NCBI RefSeq assembly: GCF_041146795.1
Contig: NC_135173.1
Location: forward strand, 68,860,251-68,924,250
From: Maylandia zebra
Taxonomy: Eukaryota; Chordata; Actinopteri; Cichliformes; Cichlidae
Direction of reading: 5' to 3'
Length of the DNA: 64,000 nt
A program made the position numbers and the translations under genes. Shown here one piece after another: positions 8,101-41,369 of the stretch. Under the pieces are notes generated by a model that was not told the origin of the DNA, ran no database searches, and was given only the letters and a program-made list of their open reading frames with translations. Position 1 is the first letter of the stretch; every line of letters starts with the position of its first letter.

Positions 8101-8209
8101 TGTCCTCTCTCACACCTGTCCCCTCACTCCTGTTCTCTTTCACACCTGTCCTCCCTCACACCTGTCCTCTGTCACACCTGTCCCCCCTCATACCTGTCCC
8201 CTCACACCT
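2134..8209. repeat. 6 kb minisatellite, unit about 11-16 bp, core CTCACACCTGTCC
   Basis: Several hundred imperfect copies of (C)CTCACACCTGTCC or CTCTCACACCTGT. Variants include CACATGTCC, AAGACCTGTCC, CACTGACC and CCCTAACCCTGTCCCC. Blocks of many units recur, for example the segment near 5,740-6,000 recurs near 7,050-7,330, showing large secondary duplications. Each core contains the E-box CACCTG and overlaps TCACACCT, a T-box half site. The Ser/Pro/Thr/Cys/His open frames across it follow from stop-free repeat units and are not proteins. Confidence 0.97.
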
Positions 8210-18900: not shown

Positions 18901-19200
18901 GCAGAAGGGGAGGGCAGGAAGACAGGAGGGGAGGGCAGGAGGACAGGAGGGGAGGACAGGAGGGGAGGGCAGGAGGACAGGAGGGGAGGACAGGAGGGGA
19001 GGAGGAGGGGAGGACAGGAGGGGAGGGCAGGAGGACAGGAGGGGAGGACAGGAGGGGAGGAGGAGGGGAGGGCAGAAGGGGAGGACAGGAGGGGAGGAGG
19101 AGGGGAGGGCAGAAGGGGAGGACAGGAGAGGAGGACAGGAGGGGAGGGCAGAAGGGGAGGACAGGAGGGGAGGAGGAGGGGAGGGTAGAAGGGGAGGGCA
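15964..19200. repeat. 3.2 kb G-rich minisatellite, core GGGGAGG(A/G)CAGGA
   Basis: Units GGGGAGGGCAGGA, GGGGAGGACAGGA, GGAGGACAGGA and GGAAGACAGGA are shuffled in higher-order blocks. The + strand is almost purely purine with clustered GGGG and GGG runs, so G-quadruplex or triplex structure is likely. No unit contains a stop in several frames, giving open frames of about 1,100 codons on both strands; these are repeat artefacts with only Gly/Arg/Gln/Glu/Asp or Pro/Ser/Leu/Cys. Confidence 0.97.
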
Positions 19201-19476
19201 AGAGGAAAGAAACCTTTAAATCAGAAACAAACACAATGTGGAGATATTGATGACAGCTGAGATCAGCAGACCGTTTTTTATTGAAGAAAATCTACAAACG
19301 TACAAAATGTAAAAATCTCAGGTGAGACAAAATCACACAAACTCGACCAAAGAAAGACTGAAAACACAACAAACACACAAAAAACAGTTTTACAAAGTTA
19401 CAAATCCTGAGAGTTAAAATATGAATGAATCTGCTTAAATACAAATAACAGGGAGAAGATTCCAGAAACACAAACG

Positions 19477-19478
<2 letters not shown>

Positions 19479-19555
<77 letters not shown>

Positions 19556-19573
19556 GACACACACACAAACACA

Positions 19574-19609
<36 letters not shown>

Positions 19610-19860
19610 GACACACACACACACACACACTCACAGACACACACACAAACACAGACACACACACACACACACAAACACAGACACACACACACACACACTC
19701 ACAGACACACACACACACACACACAGACACACACACACACACACACACAAACACAGACACACACACAAACACAGACACACACACACACTCACAGACACAC
19801 ACACAAACACAGACACACACACACACACACTCACAGACACACACACAAACACACACATAC
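19479..19860. repeat. (CA)n microsatellite, left part of the split tract
   Basis: CA repeat with recurrent interruptions CTCACAGACAC and AAACACAGACAC. The same interruptions occur at the start of the (CA)n tract at 40,401, suggesting the two were one microsatellite before the 20.5 kb insertion. Confidence 0.95.
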
Positions 19861-19884
19861 TGGTAAAGGTGAATTGGAAGGACA
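19861..19884 (+). repeat. Left terminal inverted repeat of the large insert
   Basis: Begins TGGTAAAGGTGAATT and ends GGACA, immediately after the CA tract. It pairs imperfectly with 40,374-40,397. The GGAC core recurs many times in both terminal 300-500 bp regions. Confidence 0.5.
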
Positions 19885-20126
19885 ATTTTTTCAAACAAGA
19901 TTTTTGCAACACTAAACGGACCCCCCTTTCCGCTTGTGCTAGATAGATGAAGTGCATCTTTAAAAATCCCATTTGAGTTGTACAACACAAATCTCACTTC
20001 AAAATTGTGAAAAACACACCAGAACTCAAAATATAAGAACCTGACAACATGGTGTAATAAGAGGACAACACTAATTAGGTAACTTGGCTCCTCCCCCTGA
20101 CATGAACAGTAATTGTCAGGGCTAAC

Positions 20127-20132
20127 TTTATT
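20127..20132 (-). terminator. Candidate poly(A) signal of the SET/recombinase gene
   Basis: AATAAA on the minus strand about 310 nt beyond the stop codon at 20,440 and still inside the left end of the element. It overlaps the inner inverted motif, so its role is not certain. Confidence 0.35.
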
Positions 20133-20439
20133 AACAGGACAAAGGCCATACACATACACAAACATGTATTTTGTGTGTATTAAAAGGGCAACAGGTGAAT
20201 AAAAGGAACAAATTGAGTGCATTTTACAAAAACAGGATTGTTTTGTTAACAGAAATGAAAATAACTGGCAATATAAAATTATATGTCCTCTTAGATCAGA
20301 TGCACTAAAACAGTGTCAACAAAATGAATTTACCAATCTTCTAATAGTAAAATTCTAAAATAAATAAATGAGAAACCAAAACATACAAAATATCTTTTGT
20401 AACTCCTCCAAGAAGTACTTTGGAGTTATGTAGACTCCT

Positions 20440-23400
20440 CTACATAGGATTTTCTTTTTTCTTCAACGACACGCCCCGATTCCTCACAAAATCTCTGATG
20501 TTTTGAATAGAACGACCAGCCAGAGCAGGATCTTCTGCAGTTTTGCATTGCTGGCATTCGATAATAGTGGCCAGTTTTCCTTTTTTGATATGTTCGCCAA
20601 AATACTTCATTATCGCAGCAACCTCCGTGGGAGACCAAGGATGCTTTTTGACCCTCCTTGCATTTTCCAGAGAAGCTAGAAGCAGAAAAAAATAAATGTA
20701 AACAAACTACTTTTTAAACAATTTTTAAATTAAAGGGGACGTATTATGCTCAATTGTGTGAGTTGACATGGTTGTAGGATGCAAAAATATAATGGCGATA
20801 ATCGGCTTCCTTCAAATAAGCCGAAGAATTGAGTTCTGCACACACTAGTTTTACAGCCCTGCTAAGAACAGTTAGTGTTTAGTCTACACAGCCCAAAGAC
20901 GGCCTTTGCATTGTCCACGAGGACAGGTGCTGAGGCTGTGATTATGCTGGATTGTGCAAAATACACTACCTGGGACCTAAAAGAGCTCCTTTTTTAGTTG
21001 TTGAAAACCTACACTTAAGGAGTCGGGAGGCAATTCATAACCAAATATACATACAAAAGCAACAAAAAAAAGTGGGTTTTGCATAATATGTCCCCTTTAA
21101 GGTGAATTTGTTGTAACAGTGTTTCTTTGGTATAAATCCTGTAATGCTGACTGTTTAAATACTTATTACAATGGATGAATACATTTATTTAAATGTAAAA
21201 TTCTGAAAGGTAGCCCACATTAAGTCAGAATTCCAATAAATAGCTATGGCAAATCACTATGGATGGAGAGCATTTTATTCCACACACCGTTATACAACAA
21301 AAAACATGTATAGCATGATATTGTAATAATTTGAAATGTATAACATATACTCAAACATTTCATATATAACTGTCTGACTCAAATGTTTATTTAAAAACAA
21401 GGGTGGACCCTGCCTGACCATGAGGTGGGCCTTCAGGTTTTTTCAGTGAACATAATTTTCTTCAAGACGTTCAGGTTACAGCCCACAATTAGCCAAACCA
21501 GCCCAAATTTTCCAATATTATCCAGATTCTGCCTATGGGAATAAGATGATGTTCAGAGTATGGAGATAATGTAGAAGCCCAATGGTTGAGGAATCCTCAA
21601 AATTAAAAACCCAAATCATAATATGTTCTCATTGCTTTGTTTATTAATTGTTTTGGTGCATTGCTGTTTTGAAAATGATAAGTATTTAAATGTATTACAG
21701 ATTAAAACAGGCATAGGGAAAGTAATTTAAACATTTATCCCATTACTTAATACAAGGTATTGTTCCACATTGAATGTGATTTATGTTTTACCTTACCAAG
21801 TAGGTTAATATAATTGTCTAACCAAGTTGTAGAATTATGGTACGGTCCCTGGCAGAAAGATGAGCATAGTCACCATACTGGCTTGGGTGGTGTGGATAAC
21901 TGGGTTCAAAAATGCATGAAGTTTACATTTGTGCTTAAGTGACTTTTGTATGCATGTCACCATTTACCAGATTGTTCATTTGTTTTCTTCTTACTGCTTG
22001 GCTTCATCTCCTTGTTTAGTATTCTGTTGGGTTCAATGACCTTACCCGCTCCATTTTTACTTTGTGCTGAAAAACAAAACAAAACAGTAAGCATATATTT
22101 GTTGTATTAAATCTCTTATAATGTAATGTCAAATGCTCCTGAATGTGGTCAAGCAACTAATGGACCTTGAAATCTTGAATATGGTTTCTAAGATAAATCC
22201 AGAGTCGCAACTATGACTTTTAGTTTAAGGTGACACATGTGAATGTGGAATATGGCTAGAGCTATTACAGCTGATATTAAAAGATACAAGGCTGAATTTT
22301 TCTCCAAACAAGACTCCGGTGTAGTGATGGGATTTCCGGCTCTTTTTAGAGATCCGGCTCTCTCGGCTCGGCTCACTAAAAAGAGCCGGCTCTTTCGGCT
22401 CCCGAACCGGCTCTTCAGGTTATTTTGTTGCTTTCATTCATTTATTATTAACAACAATATAAAATTATGCACAAAATGAATTACTAATGTTTCAAAACGT
22501 GTTTTCTATGTATATATGTTCATTATATAAATCTGCTTTTATTTATTCACTCCACATAAAATTTAAAAAATAAATTATAAAATACAAAAACCTACCATTT
22601 ACAATTTAACTTTTAAAATTTAAACTTTAAATTTAAAAATACCAAGTGCCCAGTGCACAGCTCAGTGGGTAGACACACTGGCAGCTTCACTTATATCACA
22701 CTTAATTCACTGTGTTTTATCTTCCCATCGCACTGATGAGTGGACAGTTTTCAGGTGCCCGTGCACCGGCTCTATATGATATCCTTTTCTTGCAGACTCT
22801 ACACTCTGCCTATGTATTGTCAGTAAAATTTAAATGGTTCTAGATTTTGCTTCTTTTCTTGGTGTCACTCATTTTCTTTACTCCACCTTTCTAATGTGAC
22901 GACATTGTCTCTTGTTGTTGCTCCCGGCTCTCTTTCTCTCTCTCTCCCTGCTGCTCTTTTCGTGTGCTACTGCTGTTGCGAGTGTAACTACCGCCCCTAG
23001 CTCCTCCCTCTGCTCAGAGGCGGGAGGGGTGCAAACGCAAGGCTCTGTTTGCGCCCCTCCCGTCTCTACTCAGCGCAAACACAAGGCTGACGTGCAGCGA
23101 AAAAAGTGAGAGAGAGGGCAAGAGAAAGTAAAAAAAAAAAAATCCACGGCTCCCAATAAGGAGCCGGCTCGCATCGTTCACTTCAAAGAACCAGCTCTAA
23201 GAGCCATTTCGTTCGCGAACGACCCATCACTACTCCGGTGACTGGTCAACTTTCCACTCACCACTGATTTACTGTAGAAAGAGGATGAGAGCGTAGAGGG
23301 AATACTTCAGAAGCGCAAACCAGGTAAATAAAGAGTAGTAGATCAGCCCTCCACACACCAACTATTTTCATCTCTCTTGATTAATCTCATCTCCTTCTGT

Positions 23401-26400
23401 CTCCTGCAGGGCAGCTTCCTTTCTAACATCCTTCAACAAACCTTCCTCACTGTCCCTTGTTTGCACATGCCCAACACAACCTCAACCTGGCCAATGTAGA
23501 ACAATGTAGACATTTTTTCCAACATGTGCAGTCCCAATGATATTGTTCTTCCTAATCCTATCCATTCTCTCCACCCTCAAAAAGAATCCCAGCATCTTTG
23601 CTTTCCCCAAACTCACCTCCAAGAACTGCAATCTATTAAGAACTCTGCTGCCCCCTTACTCTACTGCACTCACTCTAGAGACTATATCACCACATCCTAA
23701 AAAGAACATTACTGGCTGCACACTGACTATAGTATTGAGTGCAAACTCCTAATCAACTTTTAAGCCTTCAACAACCTCGCCCCCGCCACCCTGAGGGATT
23801 GTCTTTACTGTCACTCTCCCACAACACTGCTAACACTAACCTCCTTACCCCCATCATCAAAATCATAAATCTGAGGGTACAATCCTTTGCCACTGCTAAT
23901 TGCACCCTCTGGAACTTCCTCTGCTCATTAGATTCTCTCTAGAACTTTAAATCACAGCTCAAAATCACCTGTTCAAACTAGCATTTCCTACCTGACCATC
24001 CTCCAAAACTGACCTTTCTATTCTGTTGAGCTGGTCTTTAGAAAGATCCTTGACTTTCTTTAAATTACCATTTGGACAAAGGTAACAATCACTGGAAAAA
24101 TGATAGTAATGAATTATCTTTTTTTTTTTTTACATAAAGATAGCAAAGATAGCAAAAGTGTCTAGGAAGTAGTTACAAAGGTAAAAGCTTCAATAAATGA
24201 TGACAAACACATACCTGGAGGTTCCTTGACAACTTTCTTCATCATTCTAGTATCTATAGAATCTGTAATAAAGTCTATTAGTCATGTGATTTCATAAATT
24301 GAACAAAGTTGAGACTAATCACATTGTACTTACCAATCTGTGGATATACAAGATTTCCTTCATTGACCTCACGCTCCGCTCCGACCTCCTCACGCTCCGC
24401 TCCGACCTCCTCACGCTCCGCTCCGACCTCCTCACGCTCCGCTCCGACCTCCTCACGCTCCGCTCCGACCTCCTCACGCTCCGCTCCGACCTCCTCACGC
24501 TCCGCTCCGACCTCCTCACGCTCCGCTCCGACCTCACTTTCTTCACTTGAATCTGTCAACTGTAGGTTATCTAACAAAATAAAAGATTGTCTTAATGAAT
24601 TATAAGGTTATAGTGCAGGAAACGTGTATAATTCTTAACCTTAACACCACTTTACCTTCGATTTCAATCTCTTCAAGTGTTTTGCCTTGAAGGCTTTTGA
24701 GAGACCCTTTCTCCATGGCAATCAGTAGTTTGGATATTTTGGCAAGCTGGGTAGTAGCCTCTGGAAGTCTATAATATTCGCGATGAACACGAATATCATG
24801 ACCTAGGAAGTTGGCAACTTGGTCTAACTCGTGATTCTTGAGGTTTAAGATCTGAGACAAAGTTGCGACATGTTTGCGCAACTGCGTTGAACGTAGGTGT
24901 TCAGGGTTTTCAGCCCCACATTCAGTCGCATAAATCCTCAAACAGTCCTGTCCTCTGTAGGGAGTCAGACAATGAGGTCTGGCAAACAGGAATATGTTTT
25001 CTGCCAGAACACCACAGTCTTGTCTTTTCTCTGTCAGCCGTGTTATGGCATTCACCATGTCTGGTGAAAGTAGCACTGCAACCTTGCGTCCTCGTTTACC
25101 CCTCAATTCTACACGACTGAAGTGTTGACAAAGGTAAAGTTCAAATTTTGTCAGTCCAATTGCAACATCCTTGTGCAGGGTACTAGTGTCTCTCTCCTGG
25201 AAGCCATTCAGTGTCATCTTTGAAATTTCTCCCCCTCTTCTCCTGTTAAATAGTATTACATTTGCCATGGTAGCTTTACAAAGTTCACTGTATGATTTTG
25301 GTGAACTATGCTCTTCCAAGTCCTTCAGTGCTTGTTCTGTAGTCTTCTCCAGATGTCTATGAAGACGCTGAACATCTTCTGTGAAAGGAAGTGTGGAAGG
25401 CTTGTTGAAGTGCCGCTCGTTTAGTGTGGTTAATGCAGTATGGGAGATGAGTTCTGACCACTTTGTAGCATAAAGGGTTTTGAAACTCTGGGTTGACTTT
25501 ATCAGTGCACTGTCTTCTGCCATCAGTGCTCTGCAATGTATAATATCACAGACTTTCTGCAGTGAGTGTCCCAACTTTAAAGCAAGGCTTGGAGTCGAGT
25601 AGCAGTTCTTTTCTTCATCATACCCACACACCTTCTTAACAGCTTTGATAACCACATTGAAATTTGCAGGTCTTACAGCATCCTCAAAAGTGTGTATTGA
25701 GCATTCTTTCCGAAGTGTGAGCAGAAGTCTTCCACATTCTCGGAGTGTCTGGCGAATGTAGTCAAATTTGGTGGGATCTTTCCCATGTTTGTTAAAGAAT
25801 GATTGAGCAAGCTGAAGAATAGAGAAGTCACTTCGCACAGTAGAAGTTATTTCATCATCTTTCATGACAGCTAATATCTTCCAAACACCGGGGGAAACTT
25901 GCTGACACAGAGCTGACTCACTCATACAGGCCAGGGACAAGACCTTTTTTCGTCCCCCCTCTGAATTGGCCTCCACTGGTTTTGAAGAACATTTACGAAC
26001 ATGTCTCCAAAGATCTCTTTTAAGATATAATGCCTCGCAATAAATGCAGTGAATATAGTCTTTTCCTTTGTAGGGTTTTTTTGATGTGCGTCTGGTTTTT
26101 AATGATCCAATCCCACTTGCGATGACCTCCGAGTTATGTCTGTGGTTTCCTTTGTTTCGCAGCTTAGAAAGCATTTTCAAACGGTCTTTGGACTTCTTGG
26201 GAAGACTTAAAACTCGAGCAACATCTGCATGTGATTTCTCATGAGTTTTTAAATGACGTGTAAACTTTGTCTGTAGTTTTCCACAAATGTAGCAGTATGT
26301 TTTGTTTCTTAGTGAGGAGGATGTTTTTAAGGAATCTTCAGCCGTAGTATTAGAGTCATCAACAATGCCTTCAGCATCAGACTTTTCTGCTGTGGCAATA

Positions 26401-29400
26401 ACCCCTGATACGTCGAGCTGTCTTGTGCCAATTCCATCTTCAGATATTGATTCGGCATCTTCTGAAATTCTTTGTCCTACTCTCTCTAAAAAACTTTCTA
26501 GGCGAGGTCTTTTCGTTTTGCAAGCAGATTGACTGCTGGAGATCTCAGAGTTCTGTACTTGTTTGCAACTTATATTTAAAGGCTCTGATTTGTTGTCCCA
26601 TGAGCTGTCTGAGTCAGCTATAGAATCTGGCACATATTCCTCTTCTGATGAAGCCCCCTCACTTGAACTATCTTCACTAAAGACCTAATAACAATCAAAA
26701 ACACAAAGTAAGACTTTGTTTACCTTACATATTTTACTGAGAAGAATTCTGCAAAAACACTTACCTCTGGAAGAGGTTCAGTGAGGTTCACCTTGTGGCT
26801 AACATAACATCTTTTGTGCCAGGACTGGTAGCAAACTAGACAGAGAAAAATTAAGTTAATAAAAGAAAGGTAGTTAAAGCCGCTTTCCCCAATTTAAAAA
26901 AACAGGCTAGATGGAAGCATAAACACAGTCAAGAAGGCTCCCCCCTCCCATTGGATATTATCCATAGGCCACACCCCCTGGTGTGCTTTGCTGCTAAACA
27001 GGCCAGTGCATAGTGTGGTGGAGCCATGTTAATGTAGAATTTAAGGAGTCAGGAAAGACTGTTCTATCGTTTTTCTGGACTGAGCCATGTTATTGGCTGA
27101 TGGTTTTAGACAAATGCAACAGAACCACTTCATTTTTTTTTCTTTAATCTCCAAACAACATTTATAGCTATGCTTTGTTAAAATGTTGTTATGAACATGA
27201 AAAAAAAATATGTTAGGCTAACTTGTTTTTGCAAATTGGGTATAGCAGCTTTAATAATGACATGGTAAGTAAATATGTAAAAAGTGCAGATGTAAAAGGT
27301 TCATTATGAACATATATCATATTTACTTATGGATTAGTTTTTATAGTGTTCCTTATGGATCATATTTAAGATATTCTAATGTACCCAACCTTCCATAATT
27401 AAATAATTACCTTCACATCTCACACCACTCCATTTCAGAGGCGAAAAAGGTCCTCCACATGCAAAACATTTTTCTAAACTTGACATTTCGTCAGGGACTA
27501 GATCATGATCGCAGTCCTGTTTGGTAAAAAAAAAACAAAAAAAAAAAAAAGTGTAATCAAAAACAAAATTCATACTTTTGTGATGTAAAATATCACAACC
27601 AAATAGTTGTTTTGGTTCCTCTTTAAAAAGGAGTTAAGGACGGAAGAAAAAAAAAAAAAAAAAAAAAAAAAAAAACAGGTTCAAGTGTTACTAAAACTAT
27701 TAAATCAATTTTTGTAACTTTTGCAATGCAAAATTTAAAGGGAAAAATACCTGCTGTATATAGATCAATTTTCAAAACAATTTGTTCTTCTAGGTTTTAT
27801 ATTATGGTATATATTACAAAACCACAATGAAAAGAAAATTCATTGTGGACCCACAACACCCAAAAAAGATTAGACTTACAATTTGTTCTTTCTGAAATGA
27901 GAAGATGTGTCCAAAGTTTTGACTGGGAGTGTAAAAAAGTATAATTAAATCATGAAGTCATGAATCCATCAAGACATAACGGATGGCCTTTACACAACAA
28001 TGTTACATAAATGTGCTTAGCATTAACAGGAAAGAGTTTAGCGATTGTTTCGGTTGTATTTACATGCTCCTTCCTATAGTAAGCTTCATTCTTGCTCCTT
28101 GATCAGCTGAAATTCAAATATGCGATCTAACTACATCAGAGTTCATTTCAACCAAGCCGAGAACTACGTCTTTATGCAAACCAGATTTAGGGTTGGGGTT
28201 TCATACTTCTTGTTTCAAATCTCAGTCCTCCTAATGCGTGCATCTTACTTGGTCAAGATAACCAAGGACCCACATACCTCAATACTGCCTAATAACTAGC
28301 ACCTCAGTCTACAACTAAAACAATCTGACACTGAAACTCCAATTTACCTTTGTTGCGTCGTTAGGAGAGGAACTGGCTGCATTCTCATCCACAGCCTGAG
28401 ATGGCACCATGTTGGATTTCTAAAGAAGAAGCGTGAATAATGAATGGCAGTCTTTGGGTCTAGCCAAGATGAATACAGTCCTCCTAATGTCTGGACCTGT
28501 CCAGTTGAGTAATACACAGGACCCGTGTGTGTATGCACAATTGCCAGAGTAACTCTCATTGATCTGAATTAATTTCTAAACTCAGTCCTCCTAATGTCTG
28601 GACCTGTCCAGTTGAGTAATACACAGGACCCGTGTGTGTGGGCGCACTTGTAGGTAGAACTCAGTTGTTTATACTTCCTGTTTCAAATCTCAGTCCTCCT
28701 AATGCGTGCATCTTACTTGGTCAAGATAACCAAGGACCCACATACCTCAATACTGCCTAATAACTAGCACCTCAGTCTACAACTAAAACAATCTGACACT
28801 GAAACTCCAATTTACCTTTGTTGCGTCGTTAGGAGAGGAACTGGCTGCATTCTCATCCACAGCCTGAGATGCCACCATGTTGGATTTCTAAGGAAGAAGC
28901 ATGAATAATGAATGGCAGTCTTTGGGTCTAGCCAAGATGAATACAGTCCTCCTAATGTCTGGACCTGTCCAGTTGAGTAATACACAGGACCCGTGTGTGT
29001 GGGCGCACTTGTAGGTAGAACTCAGTTGTTTATACTTCCTGTTTCAAATCTCAGTCCTCCTAATGCGTGCATCTTACTTGGTCAAGATAACCAAGGACCC
29101 ACATACCTCAATACTGCCTAATAACTAGCACCTCAGTCTACAACTAAAACAATCTGACACTGAAACTCCAATTTACCTTTGTTGTGTCGTTAGGAGAGGA
29201 ACTGGCTGCATTCTCATCCACAGCCTGAGATGGCACCATGTTGGATTTCTAAGGAAGAAGCGTGAATAATGAATGGCAGTCTTTGGGTCTAGCCAAGATG
29301 AATACAGTCCTCCTAATGTCTGGACCTGTCCAGTTGAGTAATACACAGGACCCGTGTGTGTATGCACAATTGCCAGAGTAACTCTCATTGATCTGAATTC

Positions 29401-31679
29401 ATTTCGAAACTCGGTCCTCCTAATGTCTGGACCTGTCCAGTTGAGTAATACACAGGACCCGTGTGTGTGGGCGCACTTGTAGGTAGAACTCAGTTGTTTA
29501 TATTTCCTGTTTCAAATCTCAGTCCTCCTAATGCGTGCATCTTACTTGGTCAAGATAACCAAGGACCCACATACCTCAATACTGCCTAATAACTAGCACC
29601 TCAGTCTACAACTAAAACAATCTGACACTGAAACTCCAATTTACCTTTGTTGCGTCGTTAGGAGAGGAACTGGCTGCATTCTCATCCACAGCCTGAGATG
29701 GCACCATGTTGGATTTCTAAGGAAGAAGCGTGAATAATGAATGGCAGTCTTTGGGTCTAGCCAAGATGAATACAGTCCTCCTAATGTCTGGACCTGTCCA
29801 GTTGAGTAATACACAGGACCCGTGTGTGTGGGCGCACTTGTAGGTAGAACTCAGTTGTTTATACTTCCTGTTTCAAATCTCAGTCCTCCTAATGCGTGCA
29901 TCTTACTTGGTCAAGATAACCAAGGACCCACATACCTCAATACTGCCTAATAACTAGCACCTCAGTCTACAACTAAAACAATCTGACACTGAAACTCCAA
30001 TTTACCTTTGTTGTGTCGTTAGGAGAGGAACTGGCTGCATTCTCATCCACAGCCTGAGATGGCACCATGTTGGATTTCTAAGGAAGAAGCGTGAATAATG
30101 AATGGCAGTCTTTGGGTCTAGCCAAGATGAATACAGTCCTCCTAATGTCTGGACCTGTCCAGTTGAGTAATACACAGGACCCGTGTGTGTATGCACAATT
30201 GCCAGAGTAACTCTCATTGATCTGAATTCATTTCGAAACTCGGTCCTCCTAATGTCTGGACCTGTCCAGTTGAGTAATACACAGGACCCGTGTGTGTGGG
30301 CGCACTTGTAGGTAGAACTCAGTTGTTTATATTTCCTGTTTCAAATCTCAGTCCTCCTAATGCGTGCATCTTACTTGGTCAAGATAACCAAGGACCCACA
30401 TACCTCAATACTGCCTAATAACTAGCACCTCAGTCTACAACTAAAACAATCTGACACTGAAACTCCAATTTACCTTTGTTGCGTCGTTAGGAGAGGAACT
30501 GGCTGCATTCTCATCCACAGCCTGAGATGGCACCATGTTGGATTTCTAAGGAAGAAGCGTGAATAATGAATGGCAGTCTTTGGGTCTAGCCAAGATGAAT
30601 ACAGTCCTCCTAATGTCTGGACCTGTCCAGTTGAGTATTACACAGGACCCGTGTGTGTATGCATACTTTTCAGTATAGCCTTTATTCATTTAATACTATT
30701 TATACTTATACTGTACTATTTACATTATACCTTGCTTCTCCATGGCCAGTTGGAATCACCATAGTTATAGGTGATTTCTTCTCCTGGACCAATATCTTTG
30801 ATTGCAAACAAACAGAGATGGGGCCTTCCATCCACTCTGGTAACTGTCATTTTACTGTTTGGATTCACATTATCGTCATTTACAAGTCTGCCAAGTGAGC
30901 CGTCCTCTCTGGTAGCATCAACACTAAAACAAAAAGTATACAATAACAATTACACTCTGTAAAGAAAGTCATTAAGTATATTAGGTTGTAGAACGTCTGA
31001 ATAACATTTTAATATTCAATTCAAAATATTATTTGAATATTATAATTTGTAAACCTCATGTATTTTATCCTTTATCAAAGCAGTTACATACCATAACTGT
31101 TTTCCATTGAACTTGAAATCAAATATGAAAACCTTGAGTGCATCATGGTAAAGTTTCATTCGGTTTTCTTGTTCCTCTTTAGTTATGATTTGTCCTCTGT
31201 ACTCAAAAAGAAAATCTCCCTTTTGAAATGACCGACAGCTGAATACACCGCGACCTAAAGACACACATCAAAAACAAATTGGGCAATAAACTATAAACCA
31301 TTTAATTAAAATCCTTCTTGTTTTTAAATATGTTTTTTATTTGATTATATTGTATTATTTATTTTGGAACATGTAACATGTTCATAATTCCTTGGGGAAA
31401 GACAAGGAAAAAATAGAAATATAATAATAATAATAATAAAACAAGTATAATTATATTCGTGATTATTAATTTTCTCATGCATGGTATGCTACAAAAAAAC
31501 TACAAAAAACATAAAAATTTCTATTTTGAGAAGCTGACTGCATTCTTTGGAATCAACTCACCTTTAAATGAATCAATATACCTCACATCAAATCCTGCCT
31601 TGTCTTCACCTAAGGAGCAGTAATACCTAGCATCTTGTATGGGATTTATTTTAGCTCTCCGTGGCCTTGTTGCCGCCAT
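20440..31679 (-). CDS. SET methyltransferase-zinc finger-tyrosine recombinase fusion protein of a transposon
   Basis: Sixteen coding exons join in phase to about 1,243 codons: 31,679-31,562; 31,254-31,092; 30,923-30,731; six 72-nt exons ending 30,474, 30,006, 29,645, 29,177, 28,816, 28,348; 27,516-27,411; 26,835-26,765; 26,684-24,656; 24,570-24,334; 24,262-24,215; 22,066-21,968; 20,675-20,440 (TAG). Residues about 20-155 form a KMT5A-like SET domain (GRGVFSC, FEYRGQII, CVDATRE, ITYNYGD). Residues 159-302 are six near-identical segments. C319-C322-C336-C339-H344-C347 form a zinc module. C2H2 (492-509) and C2HC (574-593) fingers follow. The recombinase part has RRRGGE (842-847), QLRKH (962-966), LGH (988-990) and YY (998-999), in the order of a tyrosine recombinase. 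Eight EVGAERE repeats and a basic C-terminal domain (HPWSPTEV...IRDFVRNRG) end it. The model carries no stop or frameshift. Inference: an integrase with a chromatin-targeting or modifying arm. One gene rather than two is supported only by phase and order. Confidence 0.75.
20730..21100. mobile_element. MITE with TTAA ends in a recombinase-gene intron
   Basis: Terminal inverted repeats TTAAAGGGGAC(G/A)TATTATGC face each other at 20,730 and 21,100, and each begins with TTAA, the target site of piggyBac- and Kolobok-type transposons. At 371 bp with no ORF it is a non-autonomous copy. It sits in the last intron of the SET/recombinase gene. Confidence 0.75.
22314..23240. mobile_element. Non-autonomous hAT transposon with 8-bp target duplication
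   Basis: Inverted ends TAGTGATGGG and CCCATCACTA at 22,322 and 23,232 are bordered by a perfect 8-bp direct repeat CTCCGGTG (22,314-22,321 and 23,233-23,240). Eight-bp duplications are diagnostic of hAT elements. The subterminal zones are packed with GAGCCGGCTC words, likely transposase binding sites. The interior is AT-rich without a transposase ORF. It interrupts an intron of the SET/recombinase gene, so it arrived later. Confidence 0.9.
23480..24060 (+). mobile_element. Decayed L2-type LINE fragment
   Basis: The forward sequence, read across frames, resembles the end of an L2-family reverse-transcriptase ORF (words like NSAAPLLYCTHSRDYIT and KAFNNLAPATLRD). Frame breaks show it is dead. 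It lies within an intron of the SET/recombinase gene, in antisense orientation. Confidence 0.6.
24367..24535 (-). repeat. 21-bp coding minisatellite, eight copies
   Basis: Eight nearly identical 21-bp units encode EVGAERE in the minus-strand frame within the exon 24,570-24,334. The unit length is a multiple of three, so copy-number change would keep the frame. The encoded stretch is highly charged, probably a flexible or helical linker. Confidence 0.9.
28199..30666 (-). repeat. 829-bp tandem array that multiplies a 72-bp exon
   Basis: The array repeats with a period of 829 bp, each unit being two related halves (469 and 360 bp spacing). Six copies of one exon (starts 30,545, 30,077, 29,716, 29,248, 28,887, 28,419) each have a TTAG acceptor and a G|GTAAAT donor and encode 24 codons in phase 0 containing MVPSQAVDENAASSS. 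Copies differ by only a few bases, for example one Pro to Ala change, so the amplification is recent or homogenised. Intronic parts carry the short inverted repeat TGGACCTGTCCA. Confidence 0.92.
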
Positions 31680-32289
31680 CCCCTGCAAAGATCAGGTATT
31701 AATGACTTTAGAAATAACACATTATACTACAAAATGTATGTAGACATAGAAATAAACAGATCGAAAAATCTATTTATGTTGGGGAGAGCTCCCCTAAAGG
31801 TTCCAAATATCTGTGTTCCTCCTATCTTGTATCACTGTGTGTCAGAGGCTGCATGCCCTACCTGTGGAAGTTCTGTTTCGTATATTTTATTTGGTCTAAG
31901 GTTACTGCAAATCTTAATGAGTTAATTTTCATATCCACATTTCCTTAACCTTTTATATTTCTTAAAGTTATAAATTAAAATAATGATTTAGTATGGTTGA
32001 ACAATAAGCATATTTGTCCTACAGTTTTTGTTTCATTTGTAAAATATTTTCTGAAAACAGATCTCACTAGTTTTAAAACCACAAGTTTTGTGATGCTAAA
32101 ACCAAAATTAATCAAACCAACAGCAACAGAATGTCAAACTTTTGCTACTAGCATGCTGGCTAGCTAAACTGTCAAAAATTAGATACTTTGGTGTATCCGA
32201 ACGTAATATAATAACCTATATTACTTTGCTTTATTGGATGAATATATTTATATAAACATCATGTGTAAGGGAATTTGTATGGTTCTCAC

Positions 32290-32400
32290 CTGATCTTCCA
32301 CGAAAGCAGTAAGATAAAAGCTGTCTCATTAAATCCTCATGTCGTGCACCTGAACTCTTTAGTGTCCTCTTCTTCTTCTTCTGCTCTTTAAATGTTCATG
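32290..32400 (-). other. Probable 5' untranslated first exon of the SET/recombinase gene
   Basis: A good minus-strand donor (AG|GTGAGA) at 32,290 lies upstream of the acceptor CTTTGCAG that leads into GGGATGG at 31,679. The exon upstream of that donor would be non-coding. Its 5' end cannot be fixed; no TATA box was seen. Confidence 0.4.
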
Positions 32401-32929
32401 GTGGTTGGCAACCAGCGTAGATGTACATTAGCGCCCCCATAGTGCTGAGGAGTGGATATCATTGGCCAAGAACAGTGGATTAACACTGGGATTCTTGCAA
32501 ATAGAATGCTATGATGTAATAGAGTTAAATTGCTCTAGTGCATTCTGACATAACTCACTTGGAATATGTAGACTTAATAATACTGTATAAAATGTAATTT
32601 TTCCAAAAGACTGATATTTATGCTTCTAAATTTTTAAAGAATGAAACAAAAGTAGTAAATGGGGATGATGAGTTTTAGTAACAACTTCAAAGTTATTTGG
32701 CTAAAAGAGTTTTAAAATTCAAATAATTAACTTGGACCAAAAAGGCATATTATTGCTACAATGAGATTGGTGAATAAAAATAGATTAGACCACAGATATT
32801 TAAGTATTGCAGCAATACAATTAATTTTCATGACCTTAAGTGTTTTTGTGATGCTTTCTTTTTCTTTTTAAATAGTAAAAACTCATGACATAATTAGGAC
32901 AAAGTTTATAATGAAATAGAAAAATCTTT

Positions 32930-33805
32930 ATTATTGTGGCTGGTCTGGGATGCTGCTGCAGGTGAGATGGACTCACCTGCATTGTATCTACAATCTGTTA
33001 CAGCAACCGTATAATTATTGTAATTGTTGGACAGCGCAAGGGAACGACCGGCTCAGGTGAGCCACAGGCTGGTGCGCTAGCGGGATGGGGGTGCCGCTGG
33101 AAGCGTGGGCGGTCCCTGGAACCACCTCGTCACCAGCGCCGCTAGATCTACAGGCGAACGCCCAGGTAGTCACTTCCCCGTGGCTGGGCTGGGGAGCTGA
33201 TGCTCCAGGCCTATTCCCTCGCTTGCTCATGGAGGGGGGGGGGGGGGGAGGTGGCTCCTCGGTCTTAGTCGGGGGAAGAGGGTATGTGGCGGGGCGTGTT
33301 CTGCGATGCCGCTGCATGTGAGATGGACCCACCTGCACGGCATCTATAATCACACCACGCTGGCTTAAAACTTGTGCTCTGCTTGTGGTGTTGTTTGTGG
33401 TGATGTGTACGGCAGACACAAACATACCTTCCCACCCTCATACACACAACCACAAACACTCGGCCCTCACCCAACGTGGACACAGACATAAATGGACACT
33501 GTACACACAATCACACTCCCCAAACATTCTCTACATCCCAGGTCCAGGTATTCTTGCCCCGGAGGGGGAACTCATACCCAGACCCAGATGTTGCCCTCCT
33601 CCCTGAGGTGGAAATCAAGCAGACCGTCCCCGGCTCCGCAGTGGCAGGGGGCCGCTGCAACCCAGGCCTCGATCAGATGGCTAATTCCACCTTCAGGCCC
33701 CCCCGCCCTGACGGCTGGCAGAGAGTGGGGCTCTGTGAAGACCCCATGCCTCCCTCCGCTCGCTCATATGTAGTGTTGCTGCGTGCTGTTCTAAAGTGCA
33801 TTTAA
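32930..33805. repeat. Unclassified dispersed repeat with internal duplication
   Basis: Two related segments, near 32,945-33,000 and 33,295-33,350, share GTGAGATGGAC(T/C)CACCTGCA(T/C), so part of it is a direct duplication. A run of about 16 G is at 33,234-33,249. The open frames are short and featureless. It lies beside the LINE relic and may be part of it, but I cannot name a family. Confidence 0.45.
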
Positions 33806-33814
33806 AACACGGGA

Positions 33815-34965
33815 GGAGATGTCATCTGTTCTTTTGATATTCATCAGAACCCTGGCTGCAGCATTTTGGATCAGCTGAAGACTTTTAGTTGCATTATGTG
33901 GACTTCCTGATAGTTAAGAGTTATAGTAATGCAGCCTTGAAGTAACAAAGGCATCAACTAGTTTTTCAGCATCACTCCTGGATGGGATGTTTCTAATTTT
34001 AGCAATATTACGGAGGTGGAAGGAGGAGACCCTAGAAACCTCTTTCATGTCAGATCTAAATGACATGTCTTTGTCAAAAAATAACACAGAGGTTCTTTGC
34101 TTTATTACTGGAGGCTAATTTAATGCCATCCAGATGAAGGGACTGACCAAGTAATTTGTTTTTCTGAGCTTCTGGTCCAAAGACAACTTCTGTCTTGTCG
34201 GAATTCAAAAGGAGGAAGTTTGAAGACATCCAGGTTTTTATGTCTTCCAAGCATGCCCGTAATCTTTATAACTGATTAGGTTCATCAGGATTTAGGTGTG
34301 CATAGCTATGGAAATTTATCCCATGCTGTCTAATGATTTTACCAATAGGGAACATATATATAGTAAAAAGGATCAGTCCAAGTACAGAACCCTGTGGTGT
34401 ACGCCACAAGTAACCATAGAGGTTGAAGAGGATTTATCATTTACGTAAACAAACCTTGAGTCTGTTGGACAAGTAAGATTTAAACCAGCCTAGTGCTGTT
34501 CCTTTGATCCCTGCAACATTTTCAAACCTTTCTATGAGAATATTGTGATTGAATGTGTCAAAAACAGCACTGAGGTCCAGTAGAACCAGAATGGTCACCA
34601 GTCCATTATCTGAGGCCATGAGAATATCATTAGTAACTTTCACCAGAGCTGTTTCAGTGCTATGATGAGCTCTAAAGCCAGATTGAAACTCTTCAAACAG
34701 GTCGTTATTGTTTAAGTGCTAACACACCTGATTGGCAACTATTACCTCAAGAATTTTAGATATGAAGGGAAGATTAGATATAGGTCTATAGTTCATTAAG
34801 TTGTCTTGATTAAAAGAGGGTTTCTTAAATAGAGGTTTAATTACAGCAACCTTAAAATCCTATGGTACGTATCCATTTTCTAAAAATAAATTCATTATAT
34901 CCAAAACTGGAGCAACAATTAAAGGAAATACCGCTTTAAATAGTTTGGTTCGGGATTAGGTCTAA
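33815..34965 (-). mobile_element. L2-type LINE reverse-transcriptase relic
   Basis: The minus strand encodes reverse-transcriptase blocks of a non-LTR element: LLDLSAVFDTFNHNIL at about 34,590-34,540, then ALGWFKSYLSNR, then VTCGVPQGSVLG after a frame break, then NFLLLNSDKTEVVFGP. Stops and a degraded YADD region (the catalytic Asp pair is lost) show that it is a pseudogene. Confidence 0.75.
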
Positions 34966-35841
34966 CATGCAGGTATGTATGTAGACCATGTCTACATACC
35001 TAAATGTCATAGTTCAGCTGTGTGCAGGCAGGAACGAGGAAAAGGACCCAAAATGCAGACTCTCGGAAGACTGGAGTGAAACTCAAAAACGGCAGCTTTA
35101 TTGCTGGTTGGAAAATAAGAGACAATACAAAACTAATCCACGGGGAGACACACAGCACAGGATTAGTGCCGTTTACGACGCGACAGGGAGCACAGAAAAT
35201 ACAGGGCTAAAATACACAGGGCATAACGAGGGGAATGAGAGGCAGGAGGTGAACACTGGTGGGAGACATCAGGGCTAATGAGACCAAGGAAGCAAAACTG
35301 AAAACACTGACATGAGACAAAGGCTGTATCCCAATTCAGGGTCTGCAGCCTTAAAGTACGCAGCCTCAACGATCCTCAAAGGCTGCGTACTCAAAGACCG
35401 CTAAGGCCGGAAGTAAGAGGCTTGTGAAATGGGACGGTCTAGCCTCCATCGCGCTGCCCAGGTTGCCTAGCAACCATAACACCAATCGCTGGAAACGTTT
35501 CATACAGTTTTGTTTGACAGAAATGAAAGAGAACATATTTTGTTTGTGTGTTTGTTTCTACACGAGCTTTGTGTGATTTAATAAGTATCTGAGGCTGAGA
35601 CCACAGGACTGTAAAACATGATTGTTGGCCTTCATATTTGTACTGCAGTCATTTAAGATTAGCTAGTAAATAACAATTAGCTAATGTTGTTCATGAGACT
35701 AAAGTCAGTGTAAATATGATATGGCCAATATTATAGTTATTATATTAATCATCATAAGCCATTACAGCAGTGAGTTTGAACTCTCAAATCAAATCACTTC
35801 TACAGCACATGTGAGTGAAATTCATGTGAGTGAACTCTGTG

Positions 35842-38824
35842 TCAAATATAGTCATGTAAGGTTTGGTTCCAGTTACGACCCGATTGCTTCAGCCCATAAA
35901 GTGATTTCTTTAGTCTATACACCAGTTTATTAGTCTCACTTGATTCTGTCTCAAAACCTTCTGGTTGTTGTATATATATTTCTTCATTTATTGGTGCGTG
36001 TAGATAGGCGGTTTTTACATCCATCTGGTGAACCAACATATCATCCTGAACCACTTTCTGCATCAAAACTCTCACACTCGATAAATTAGCAGTCGGTGAA
36101 AAAGTCTCCTCATAATCAACTCCTTTTGTTTGACTAAAACCTTTAGCCACAAATCGAGCTTTATATCTGTCTGATCCGTCTGAGTTCTTTTTAACGGCAT
36201 AAACCCATTTACCCCCCACTGCTTTCTTACCCTCTGGTAAAGTGGTTAAAGTAAATGTGTCATTCTCCTTAAGGGATTGAATTTCTTCATTCATCGCTTT
36301 TTCCCATTCTTTTGACTCACTTGACACAATAGCTTCACTAAATGATGTGGGTATTTCACACAACAATCTGTAGCAATAATCAACACTAGTTTGCATCTGT
36401 TCATTTTCACACTCTTTCACATCCGTGATATAATCACTCAAATAATCAGGTCTCTTTCTGATTCTGGATGGATAACGTGTAGCTCCAGCATCTACTTTAT
36501 CCTCAGTTTTAACCTCGGACTCAGTTTGACTGCTTTCACTACCATCTGGAATGTCCTCATCCTTCGTCTGTTTGGGTTCACCATCTTTTCTGGATTCATA
36601 AACCTCATCTTCATACATCTGATCACTCTGTGTTTGTTGATCCATTGTCGCGGGATTTAGTATTTTTATCAATCTGTGCTTTTCAACCTTCCCGGTTTTT
36701 GGGAAATAGATCAAATATGCTGGACTATTTTTGTCATATCCCAAGAAAACACCTTTGTCGCATCTTGGATCCAGCTTTCCCCTATTTTGTTTATAAGCAT
36801 AGCACAATGATCCGAATTTTTTCATTCTAGAAAGATCAGGTCTTTTTCCAGTTAACATCTTATACGCTGTCTGACCTGTGCGTTTGTTAAAACATCGGTT
36901 CCTAATCACTCCCGCGGTTTGTACTGCATATGGCCATAAAGACTTTGGCAATTCGCTCTCAACTAACATGCATCTTGCCATGTCAAAAAGTGTACGCCAG
37001 TTCCTCTCTGCTGTTCGGTTTTGATGAGGCGAATATGGCGCCGAAGTTTCCTGCCTAATGCCGTGTCTACTTAATAAATCTCTGAACTGACTGCTTGTAA
37101 ATTCAGTTCCATTATCAGAACGAATGCACTTGATTTTCCCATATGACGCCACATCTGCAATAAATCTTTCAGTTGCTTGAGTTGTATCACTTTTGTGTTT
37201 CAGATTATATACAAATGTTGCACCTGAATAATCATCAACAAACGACAAAACAAACTTAAACCCTTCTTTAGAGTTTGGCGTAATCGGACCAGCCAAATCC
37301 GTATGTACCAACTCTAATGCTGCCCTGGCCTTTTCATCCGGTTCTCGGTTCCTAGTTTGAATAAACTTCCCTTGTATACAGGCTTCACATTGCATATTTT
37401 TGTTGATTTTACCCTTAATTTCCATTCCATCAACGACATTTTGCAGATTTTGAACATCCTCATAATTACAGTGTCCTAGGATTTCATGCCACGTTTGCAT
37501 ATCAAAACATCCATTACATTTATCTTCAAACTCTTGCACAGTGTTTATAAAGAACAGTCTCTCGTGTTCATATATAGGGAATTTTGTTCCATCAACATGT
37601 TTAAGAAAACTGTCCCCGTGTTTGAAAACCACAGTGGCTCCGTTACTAGTAGCTGCTTTTACTGACAAAATGTCCTGTGGGAACGATGAAATGTAGAGTG
37701 CTTGTTTCAATGTTACCTTGTGGCTGCGTCCTTTACTGTCGATCATACTTATCTCAGCATCTCCTCGCCGCTTTGCAGCTCCTCTGCTCCGCCTTCCGTC
37801 AGCCAACTCTACACAATGAGCCTCGGGTTGAAATGTGTCATCAAAAGTCTTAAAACTCTCGATCTTCGTGAAGATATGTGACGTCGCTCCCGTATCCACC
37901 AATAGCTGGTTATTCAGCATCTCTTGGCCGCCGTCCGGGACCCTCTGGGGTTTGGAGCCCGTCTTGAACGCGTAGTCCTTCTCCACGACCCCTCTCGCTT
38001 CATCCCGTCTTAGCTTCCTTCTACAGGTCGCATCTTTGTGTGTACTACTCCGGCAAAAACTGCACCATACTCTAGATCGGCACGTTCTTGCAGTGTGTCC
38101 CTTTAGTCGAAAATTTAAAACACACAATCTCATTATTCTTTGATCTTCGGTCATCTGCTCGCCATGAAGTAGAATCCTGGTCTGATTGCACTTTTGTCCT
38201 CATTACGTTGTCATTAGTTATAGCCACACGCATTCGCTCGGTTTCTTCATAACTTCTGAGTTTTACTTTAAAATCTGAAAATGTGATTTTTGCTTCACTC
38301 TGTGTAACGTGCACAATCAGGGGTTTAAACGTCTCTGGTAGACCTTTCATTATCATTGCGATCAGAAGTCCATCAGTTAGTGACTCACCCGCATTTTTTA
38401 ACGCTGTGATAATTGCTTCTGCTCGGATAATATAGTCCGTCACACTTTCATTCTTTTCATTTGTGAGAGAAGTGAGTTCGGTGTACAGACTTATGATCCT
38501 TGGCTTGCCCACTCCTGCATAATGACCTCTCAAAATTTTTAGGGCCTTCCGTCCGTCATCAACTGCATCTCTCATAACTAACGATAAACTTTTGTCATCC
38601 AGAAATTGTATCAACTCTGCATATGCTTCTGCATTTTTGTCATCATCTTCACCATCGGCTTCTTCATCACCCTCAGCCTTTAAGATGACATCTTTCAAAC
38701 CTTGTAGTCTGAGATGACCAAGGAACTTCGTTTCCCATATCTCATATTTCCTTTCATCTCCATCAAATTGCAAACGGGAATATCGACTGCCCGACTCTGC
38801 CGTGCGTCTGCTCATGATGCACAA
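35842..38824 (-). pseudogene. Truncated, frameshifted Copia-type gag-pol
   Basis: Retrotransposon polyprotein remnant. A gag frame (38,824-38,072, likely start at 38,815) has a Copia-type capsid region and reaches the zinc knuckle. The pol frame (38,154-35,842) is in another frame, and the knuckle Cys/His pattern is split between the two, which points to a small indel. Pol order is Copia-like: protease VDTGATSH, pre-integrase WHEILGH, integrase with D..D..E context (DLAGPI, DNGTEF, AERNWRT), then the first part of reverse transcriptase (KWVYAVK, RYKARFVAKGF, MDVKTAYLHA). It stops after LYGLKQS, before the YxDD catalytic motif; the rest of RT, RNase H and the 3' LTR are missing. Integrase before RT separates it from Gypsy elements. 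Confidence 0.88.
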
Positions 38825-38875
38825 AAACGCTTACTCACTCAATCGTGCCAAACTTTTAACACCTGCCGGTAACTT

Positions 38876-38905
38876 GCGCAGCGGAAGCGTGCTGGGCCCA
38901 TAACC
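38876..38905 (-). other. Copia primer-binding site complementary to initiator tRNA-Met
   Basis: The + strand here matches 30 bases of the D-arm to anticodon part of vertebrate initiator tRNA-Met as I remember it (ending GGGCCCATAACC), so the minus strand (retroelement sense) can pair with that tRNA fragment. Copia elements are known to prime from an internal fragment of initiator tRNA-Met. The 5' LTR should end at 38,906 (minus-strand ...CTAACA). It is not a tRNA gene, because the acceptor stem and T arm are absent. Confidence 0.8.
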
Positions 38906-40373
38906 TGTTAGCAGAGCTGCTCTGGGCCACGTCATGGCATAATATTTTTGAGGGAGAATAAAAAGTCAACACACATATCTTATTTCTGATGGAGGACTCT
39001 GCCACTACACTTCTCCAGTCCATTCACAGTAGTCGTTGCATGGTGAGACATGGATAGGAAGTGGGCGGAGCCTTTTACCGTCATTTTATTGTGACGCAAA
39101 GTACAAACACCTGTGGACACACAATCCAACAGAAACGTTTCCAGCGGTGAGTATCATGGTTGCTAGGCAACCTGAGCAGTGCGACGGAGCCTAGACCGTC
39201 CCATTTCACAAGCCTCTCACTTCCGACCTTAGCGGTCTTTGAGTACGCGGCCCTTGTGGACTGCTAAGGCTGCGTATTTTAAGGCTGCAGACCCTGAATT
39301 GGGATACAGCCACAGAGACAGAACACCAAACCATGATAACCAAAACATGGGAAAATAATAATCAAAACTGTACACTAAGAAAGCAGAACAACAAAGCATG
39401 GAGCAGCAAAAAACCAAAACACAGACAGCAATAAATACAAAACACACAGTGAAGGGAAAGGGTGAACACAAGACCCAGGGAACACAGATAAACGTGAAGG
39501 CAAGAGGACCTAAAACAGTGAATAAAAAATAACCACAAACTCAAAATGCTGGGTCGAGAGACCCAGGACCATGACACCTAAATGCATTGAGTTGCCACTA
39601 TGTGATTGCCCAATTAGTGAGTAGTTAACGAGCAGTTCGAGGTGTACCCAATAAAGGTCACTCTTTTTTACATTTGTTTTAGAATTGCAATATCCTCTTT
39701 ACACAGGGCCAGGAAAGCATTTCCCCTTGAAAAATAAGATAATAGAAAACAACCTATATTTGTATTCACTCAGGTTCTCTTCATCTAATCTGATAACAGA
39801 TAAATGAGAGAACAAACCAAAAAATAAATAACTTATCAGTCAAATACTTTTTCATACCACTTTGTAAGTACGTAACTGTATTTACTTAGTATAACTGTGA
39901 ATAATTACACAAAACCTTAGTGTTTCATATAAAAGCAAAGCTTCATATGTCTTCTTTCCAACAAGGTAAAGCAGGCTTTTATTACAATTAAGTTCAACAT
40001 ACAGTGGTTCATTTGGTGTGGTCATTTTGGAACATTTACCAGTTATCTAACCCACATGTGAATTGGAAGGACTGTGTAAGAATTGGCGGGACAACTACAC
40101 ACAAGCCTCATTATTATTCACACATGTGTGAATATTCATGAGGTCCTGCTATTACACACGCTACCACCAGGGACACTCTTGGTGATACACAGATTTAACA
40201 CAAAATCAAGTTTATATGTATTAAACCGACATCTTGATTTTTTTGTTTTTTTAGGGTTAGTGGACCAATAGAAACCACTCTACGTTGTTAGATTTCAGTC
40301 AAAATTAGCAGGACACCGCCTCTGTCCTGTTAATTCAAAATGTCCTTCTAGTGTGGTGTGTATTCAGACGAAA

Positions 40374-40397
40374 TGTCCAGCTAATACATGTTTACCA
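40374..40397 (-). repeat. Right terminal inverted repeat of the large insert
   Basis: Reads TGGTAAACATGTATT...GGACA on the minus strand and matches the left end at 18 of 24 positions. CA microsatellite starts three bases outside it. Confidence 0.5.
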
Positions 40398-40400
40398 ACG

Positions 40401-40404
40401 CAGA

Positions 40405-40436
<32 letters not shown>

Positions 40437-40626
40437 GACACACACACAAACACAGACACACACACACACACACTCACAGACACACACACAAACACACACA
40501 CACACACACACACACTCACAGACACACTCACAGACACACACACAAACACAGACACACACACACACACACTCACAGACACACACACACACACACACACACA
40601 CTAGAACACACACACACACACACACT

Positions 40627-40663
<37 letters not shown>

Positions 40664-40706
40664 AAACACACACACACACTCAAACACACACACACACACA
40701 CACACT

Positions 40707-40737
<31 letters not shown>

Positions 40738-41224
40738 TCAAACACTCAAACACACACACACACACACACACACTCAAACACACACACACACACTCAAACA
40801 CACACGCACACACACACTCAAACACACACACACACACACTCAAACACACGCACTCAAACACACACGCACACACACACTCAAACACACACACACACACTCA
40901 AACACACACACACACACACACACACACTCAAACACGCACACACACTCAAACACACACACACACACTCAAACACACACACTCAAACACACACACACACACT
41001 CAAACACACACACACACACACACTCAAACACACGCACTCAAACACACACGCACACACACACTCAAACACACACACACAAACACACACGCACACACACACT
41101 CAAACACACACACACACTCAAACACACGCACTCAAACACACACACACACACACACTCAAACACACACACACACTCAAACACACACACACACTCAAACACA
41201 CACACACAAACACACACACACACT

Positions 41225-41273
<49 letters not shown>

Positions 41274-41369
41274 TCAAACACACACACACACACACACACA
41301 CACTCAAACACACACTCAAACACACACACACACTCAAACACACACACACACACACACACATGCACACAC
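40401..41369. repeat. (CA)n microsatellite, right part of the split tract
   Basis: CA repeat with CTCACAGACAC interruptions at its left end, like the tract ending at 19,860, then mainly ACTCAAACAC and occasional ACGCAC variants. Long His/Thr open frames here are repeat artefacts. Confidence 0.95.

Follow-up and report, generated by a model that had tools for sequence, protein, structure and literature searches.

Does a fish gene in which a KMT5A-like SET domain appears joined to a tyrosine-recombinase-like domain encode a single protein, and does it belong to its host or to a mobile element? The question is raised by a stretch of 64,000 nucleotides of the Maylandia zebra genome (C7:68860251-68924250; in the following, the window, to which all positions refer unless stated otherwise), for which a preliminary description, made from the letters alone, proposed a transposon-encoded integrase carrying its own methylating arm. 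With a probability of about 0.85, the window holds one copy of a 20-26 kb tyrosine-recombinase DNA transposon, the recombinase of which bears a SET arm, inserted at CA microsatellites; that the transposon has been recently active is the best reading of the data. The features under discussion are collected in table 1.

Table 1. Features of the window: the element, its ends, its passengers and the exons of its gene.
Feature	Position	Strand	Description
Whole mobile element	19861..40400	- (gene strand)	TGGTAAA...TTTACCAACG, 20,540 bp; common to seven loci
Left tract	19468..19857	+	irregular (AC)n, 390 bp, on the 3' side of the gene
Terminal inverted repeat, left arm	19861..19888	+	TGGTAAA outermost; imperfect, 20/28 matches
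Terminal inverted repeat, right arm	40370..40397	-	imperfect, 20/28 matches to the left arm
Right tract	40401..41369	+	irregular (CA)n, ~966 bp
Copia passenger	35848..39131	-	Ty1/copia-like LTR retroelement, truncated at 35848; longer in 3/7 copies
hAT passenger	22322..23232	.	911-bp insertion in intron 14, presumably hAT-like; ends TAGTGATGGG/CCCATCACTA; 8-bp duplication CTCCGGTG
Exon 1	31562..31679	-	start codon (31679) and N-terminal portion of the SET region
Exon 2	31092..31254	-	SET domain; GRGVF and EYRG motifs
Exon 3	30731..30923	-	SET domain; GRLVND motif and EEITYNYG
Exons 4-9	28348..30545	-	six near-identical tandem copies of one 72-nt / 24-residue exon; spacing alternates 361, 468 bp
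Exon 10	27411..27516	-	C1-like zinc finger, first part
Exon 11	26765..26835	-	C1-like zinc finger, second part
Exon 12 (long exon)	24656..26684	-	acidic stretch, C2H2- and C2HC-type zinc fingers, tyrosine-recombinase domain
Exon 13	24334..24570	-	eight 21-nt tandem units inside
Exon 14	24215..24262	-	splice-chained exon model
Exon 15	21968..22066	-	splice-chained exon model
Exon 16	20440..20675	-	conserved 78-residue C-terminal domain; stop at 20440

The gene lies on the minus strand (31679-20440), and the previously described model of 16 exons with consensus splicing and about 1,243 codons in phase was reproduced in its start, stop, 15 gt..ag introns and phases, which chain through 1,243 codons and a TAG with 0 internal stops. 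Neither the frame lengths nor the relatives of the protein allow a chance origin. The order of its parts is SET domain, repeat linker, C1-like finger, C2H2/C2HC fingers (motifs called by eye), tyrosine recombinase and C-terminal domain, the last of which (exon 16, 78 residues) gave no Pfam match. Among the matches listed, the closest is the NCBI model LOC143415831 of the same species, which agrees with residues 282-1243 of the window protein at 961 of 969 aligned positions, begins within the last repeat exon and is without the SET domain.

The SET domain was found where it had been placed, in the first three coding exons (PF00856 at residues 40-149 of the joined protein, E=1e-20, above the Pfam cut-off; motifs GRGVF, EYRG and GRLVND in exons 2-3), and the nearest solved SET chains are those of KMT5A/SETD8 (1.5e-24). 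Across 75 SET proteins and the window, GRG is kept in 68-71 of 76 rows (with 4-5 gaps), EYRG in 69-71 and N109 in 75, while the positions of the SAM motif and of the catalytic Tyr are kept in 71 (G40), 70 (G42), 76 (Y146) and 76 (Y148) of the 76 rows; judged by these residues, the arm has a KMT5A-like SET fold in which both the SAM motif and the catalytic Tyr are present. The NHS motif is the exception, N being present in 75 of 76 rows but His being replaced by Asp in all 74 rows with a letter at this position, where the protein reads ND and then PN. In KMT5A the His of NHS matters for catalysis, and the methyltransferase activity is uncertain because a His at a catalytic position has been replaced by Asp. 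The finger that follows the linker matches PF00130 (C1_1) at residues 306-351 with E=1.4e-4, below the cut-off; by eye it reads HX12CX2CX13CX2CX4HX2C, which we take to be the C1 spacing, with the final Cys of C1 absent.

For the recombinase, the matches to PF00589 (Phage_integrase) fall below the cut-off (long exon, 7.5e-4; residues 885-995 of the joined protein, 2.3e-3), an hhalign comparison with E. coli XerD was not significant, and a profile search of PDB sequences with the recombinase returned two chance matches and no recombinase. The fold predicted for the long exon by AlphaFold with 92 rows resembles those of the tyrosine recombinases XerH, Cre and XerD, and on this model the exon clearly encodes a tyrosine-recombinase fold, as the preliminary description had expected; a single-sequence model of exon 12 (mean pLDDT 36) was discarded in favour of the 92-row one. 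Of the catalytic residues usual in this family (R, K, HxxR, H/W and Y), R844, K891, R964, H990 and Y999 (joined-protein numbering) are kept in 91, 92, 90, 90 and 88 of 92 rows, respectively; the usual His of HxxR is T961 in the window protein and Thr in 91 of 92 rows.

Whether these domains are indeed parts of one protein, or whether SET and recombinase are separate neighbouring genes fused by gene prediction, can be judged from 195 proteins related to the joined protein at E<=1e-3, the best 120 of which were used for domain counts. Among these 120 relatives listed (of 195), the recombinase and zinc-finger parts are matched in all, the C1-like part in 85, the C-terminal part in 84 and the SET domain in 75. 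The 45 relatives with no SET match would suit two genes, as would the start of LOC143415831 downstream of SET and the 49 of 116 further proteins in which SET alone was matched (with lengths there limited by the query). Against two genes, the phases chain across all 16 exons, and each of the 75 listed relatives with a SET match also has the recombinase, with SET ahead of it in 75/75 fused models. Furthermore, SET and recombinase distances correlate (r=0.735; 0 of 2,000 permutations; 45 non-redundant of 69 proteins with both domains nearly full length), which is the expectation if both domains travel together.

Splicing enters through two ORFs on short lgn-labelled contigs (1,580 and 1,432 bp, taken as Logan read assemblies and presumably of RNA origin), in which the SET and C1-like parts share a single frame. 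The tail of one of these ORFs (P0172) matches, in a 25-residue run (next best real protein, 12 residues; 80 shuffled comparisons, at most 9), a shifted-frame reading of residues 1044-1068 of the Carassius protein P0034, in a linker downstream of the recombinase (recombinase end at 1023). In this message the SET exons seem to be spliced past the recombinase exon to one lying farther downstream; the recombinase exon would therefore lie within the SET transcription unit, a further argument against two genes, and the join also suggests a SET-C1 isoform that has no recombinase. The full fused message is predicted by the gene models of 75 of the 120 relatives listed. With this evidence on its two sides, a fusion created by gene prediction is very improbable, and we proceed with a single gene. 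Among the matches listed, the relatives named by organism are teleosts, one cluster also carrying a ferret label, and protein names met in the SET search bear out the multi-copy 'KMT5A-A-like' predictions in fish genomes mentioned in the preliminary description; no relative was confirmed in viral or in bacterial/archaeal contigs.

The preliminary description had overlooked a much larger repeated element (19861-40400) around the gene. In the genome searched (962,127,851 bases in 63 contigs), exons 2-3 with their intron (524 bp) gave 12 matches, 7 of them full length at 98-100% and the remaining five partial at 67-80%; the last exon is matched at exactly seven genome places; and the right end gave 14 matches, seven full length and seven consisting of a 38-bp reverse match. 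The full-length exon 2-3, last-exon and right-end matches fall on the same seven loci in consistent orientation. Their main matching stretches are 98.1-99.8% identical, introns included, and the similarity of the six other copies to the window starts at 19797-19833 and stops at 40425-40460, reaching into the CA tracts by some tens of bases. From GTAAAGG to CCAACG the copies measure 20,274 to 25,641 bp. The main differences among them are how many SET-side repeat exons they have (1, 2, 5, 6, 8, 9 and 10, different in 7/7 copies; 6 in the window) and what stands at window position 35848, next to a copia-like element, where two copies have ~5.4 kb extra and one ~0.9 kb. Five copies, that of the window among them, have the same exon 12 throughout its 676 codons; a sixth departs from it at one codon, and the seventh is without 86 bp of it. 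All seven full-length loci thus show what is expected of a mobile element, namely near-identical copies that end alike at different sites.

The gene accounts for about half of the 20-kb element, and in the rest only nested mobile elements were recognised (ORFs of at least 80-90 residues). Copia-like frames, named Ty1/copia-like by eye, lie at 35842-38830, with one 230-bp LTR-like repeat at 38902-39131; in DIRS/Ngaro retroelements a reverse transcriptase is encoded together with the recombinase, and the only ones noticed in ORFs of at least 80 residues at 31700-40404 were this copia-like pol and a LINE-like fragment, both of which look nested. The hAT-like insertion predates the amplification, because the matching stretches of all six other copies cross it. 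Left of the element, two long minisatellites occupy 2135-8210 (unit CCTCTCACACCTGTCC, ~6 kb) and 15962-19205 (unit GGAGGACAGGAGG, ~3.2 kb).

A search for terminal repeats between the near flanks of the gene gave nothing above chance; the right end lies 8.7 kb past the start codon. At the ends themselves, the inverted match of 20/28 is equalled at 0 of 20,272 interior positions. On the left, an AC tract is followed by ATACTGGTAAAGG in five copies and reaches AGGTAAAGG or GTAAAGG in the two longest; on the right, TTTACCAACG is followed by CA in 7/7 copies. All 14 flanks carry a 24-nt AC/CA stretch of purity at least 0.92 within 8 nt of the element end; the background count, taken from a single side and strand of the window and the flanks of the copies, is 30 of 128,878 positions with such AC/CA stretches at the threshold of 0.85.

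Such tracts might be the element's own ends, the insertion sites being elsewhere than CA microsatellites, and the strand of the AC tract relative to the element, which is the same in 7/7 copies, is what this would give. The length of the tracts, however, is constant neither from copy to copy nor from one end to the other of a single copy (in the six other copies, ~21-57 nt on the left and 26-62 nt on the right). Moreover, an irregular string of 83 nt stands unchanged in both the left and the right tract of the window, and a search for a 20-nt piece of it in the 500/1,000 bp around the six remaining copies gave no match. This speaks for an insertion that divided one local tract, and makes it unlikely that the tracts are the element's own ends. 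Insertion at CA microsatellites is, therefore, retained. Beyond the tracts the flanks are unrelated between copies, the only match being that between the two sides of one copy, C7b (the window's pieces lie inside its long tract). In this C7b copy (C7:21.10-21.12 Mb), the flanks that adjoin the CA tracts on the outside resemble each other in direct orientation (91% over 478 bp).

Common ends also bear on another explanation, namely a host gene family (domesticated recombinase and SET) spread by segmental duplication or gene conversion and a transposon no more. The long frames preserved across many teleosts in many gene models, and the host names NCK2a and PAK 1 carried by some Vanacampus and Parambassis models, would agree with it. 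Yet the seven copies stop at the same bases, all at CA tracts, and no two copies have common flanks beyond the tracts, which counts against duplication because duplication would take the flanks along. In a quick tree, computed with no bootstrap from 73 recombinase domains (that of the window and those of 72 of 143 relatives, selected because their species are named), the window falls among copies from cichlids, killifish and medaka, with P0016 (cyprinid) and P0019 (smelt) in the same 9-row clade (SH-aLRT 100), the next relative of which is a mudskipper copy (10 rows, SH-aLRT 99); the nesting of cyprinid and smelt copies in this otherwise percomorph clade also argues against a host gene. Elsewhere in the tree mormyrid, catfish and cyprinid or characiform copies intermix, and the topology would fit either old lineages kept as transposons or horizontal movement. 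Near-identical copies on separate contigs (99.8% over 1,088 residues) are found in Vanacampus as well. A host gene family appears improbable, and the proposal of a transposon-encoded integrase with a (putative) methylating arm holds, given seven near-identical copies with introns, common ends, flanks unrelated except for the two sides of C7b, the recombinase fold and, in 75 of 120 relatives listed, a SET domain ahead of the recombinase.

In 47 of 68 fused proteins, each isoform of a locus being counted on its own, the linker between SET and C1-like finger consists of a tandem array, with varied units and periods of 16-61 residues, against 0 of 68 for the next linker and 13 of 54 for that between recombinase and C-terminal domain. 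The length of the array might have been changed by the element's own recombinase or by slippage.

Other SET-bearing sequences were met along the way. A second SET-recombinase subfamily is found at C16:8966501 (L035/L034) and C9:15043688 (L037), the C16 recombinase being 53% identical to that of the window and the C9 copy having a long array of ~748-bp units after the SET exons; the element ends could not be set at C16:8966501, and a C4 copy is truncated. Four genome places score identically for SET. At twenty places SET is matched only in part (profile 36-105, 36.7-39.5 bits), each time with one TAG and two TAA; this resembles a repeat with a SET domain that has decayed or is non-autonomous. 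The tree-frog proteins P0235 and P0247 combine a SET domain with the same ND motif and P2RX7_C, one of them also with a KRAB box, with no recombinase match; P2RX7_C is also carried by the fish SET-recombinase protein P0087.

As for the mechanism, recombinase monomers would bind the inverted arms, and the ends would be joined into a circle with the junction TTTACCA-ACG-(CA)n-ATAC-TGGTAAA. The circular form could then recombine site-specifically with a genomic CA microsatellite, the strand exchange using short CA identity, which would account for the lack of a visible target duplication outside the CA tract. Least sure is the step in which the SET arm and the shorter SET-C1 isoform would methylate a histone or another protein at the element or its target, possibly so that the locus stays open for recombination or expression, or so that self-harm is limited. 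A wider and more tentative picture, less likely than not, is that of a teleost-wide lineage of vertebrate tyrosine-recombinase transposons inserting at CA microsatellites, in which a working protein methyltransferase within the recombinase prepares or marks donor or target chromatin, splicing picks proteins with the recombinase or with the methyltransferase only, and the two are spaced by an exon array that changes fast.

A SET-tyrosine-recombinase element, a CA-microsatellite location or such a size in a vertebrate appeared in no title or abstract start found, the search extending to neither Repbase, Dfam nor most subscription papers; the name 'KMT5A-A-like' was not found in the literature searched, and in two reviews (PMC9406493, PMC10380595) the passages concerned are general text only. 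If the reading is true, vertebrates harbour a recently active recombinase-type DNA transposon that has a putative chromatin-modifying domain built in and uses a target as simple and common as CA repeats. It would become testable whether transposons use histone methyltransferases of their own to manage integration or silencing; the many fish models named 'KMT5A-A-like', 'SETD5-like' or 'uncharacterized' would be accounted for; and a microsatellite-using recombinase tool might be obtained.

With respect to known systems, KMT5A/SETD8 is the nearest solved SET, from which the arm of the window protein differs in having ND then PN in place of NHS, and in being fused to a recombinase. SETMAR, a domesticated primate gene, likewise combines SET with a transposon enzyme, a mariner DDE transposase, whereas the gene described here is part of a multi-copy mobile element. 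Fungal Starships are large elements moved by a tyrosine recombinase, with a captain gene at one end and cargo genes; the fish element resembles them in being large, in its type of recombinase and in being able to carry other DNA, but its gene fills about half of the 20 kb, and the rest gave, among ORFs of at least 80-90 residues, only nested mobile elements. Harbinger and MuDR elements use DDE transposases. SET genes on transposons have a precedent, because HarbingerS and MuDR transposons of Phytophthora (oomycetes), by name members of other superfamilies, carry SET histone methyltransferase genes (PMC12730594); in the window, by contrast, SET is in one protein with a tyrosine recombinase, and in vertebrates. 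Cryptons are known DNA transposons with a tyrosine recombinase that also occur in fish; animal Cryptons are described as lacking both a C-terminal domain and terminal repeats, and the recombinases of CryptonA as matching DUF3504 (PMC3212892). From CryptonA/I, as far as described there, the element departs in its SET domain, C1-like finger, C-terminal domain (84 of 120 relatives listed), inverted ends (20/28) and size of 20-26 kb, and when 26 members were scanned with Pfam (E up to 0.1), DUF3504 was not among the 12 families listed, a search differing in method from that of PMC3212892. The Repbase group CryptonV, named with no description in PMC5753468, could be this element or a relative. Transposons with SET genes and tyrosine-recombinase DNA transposons are each known separately, and what appears to be new, judged by the titles and abstract starts listed, is their fusion, the location at CA microsatellites and the size in a vertebrate.
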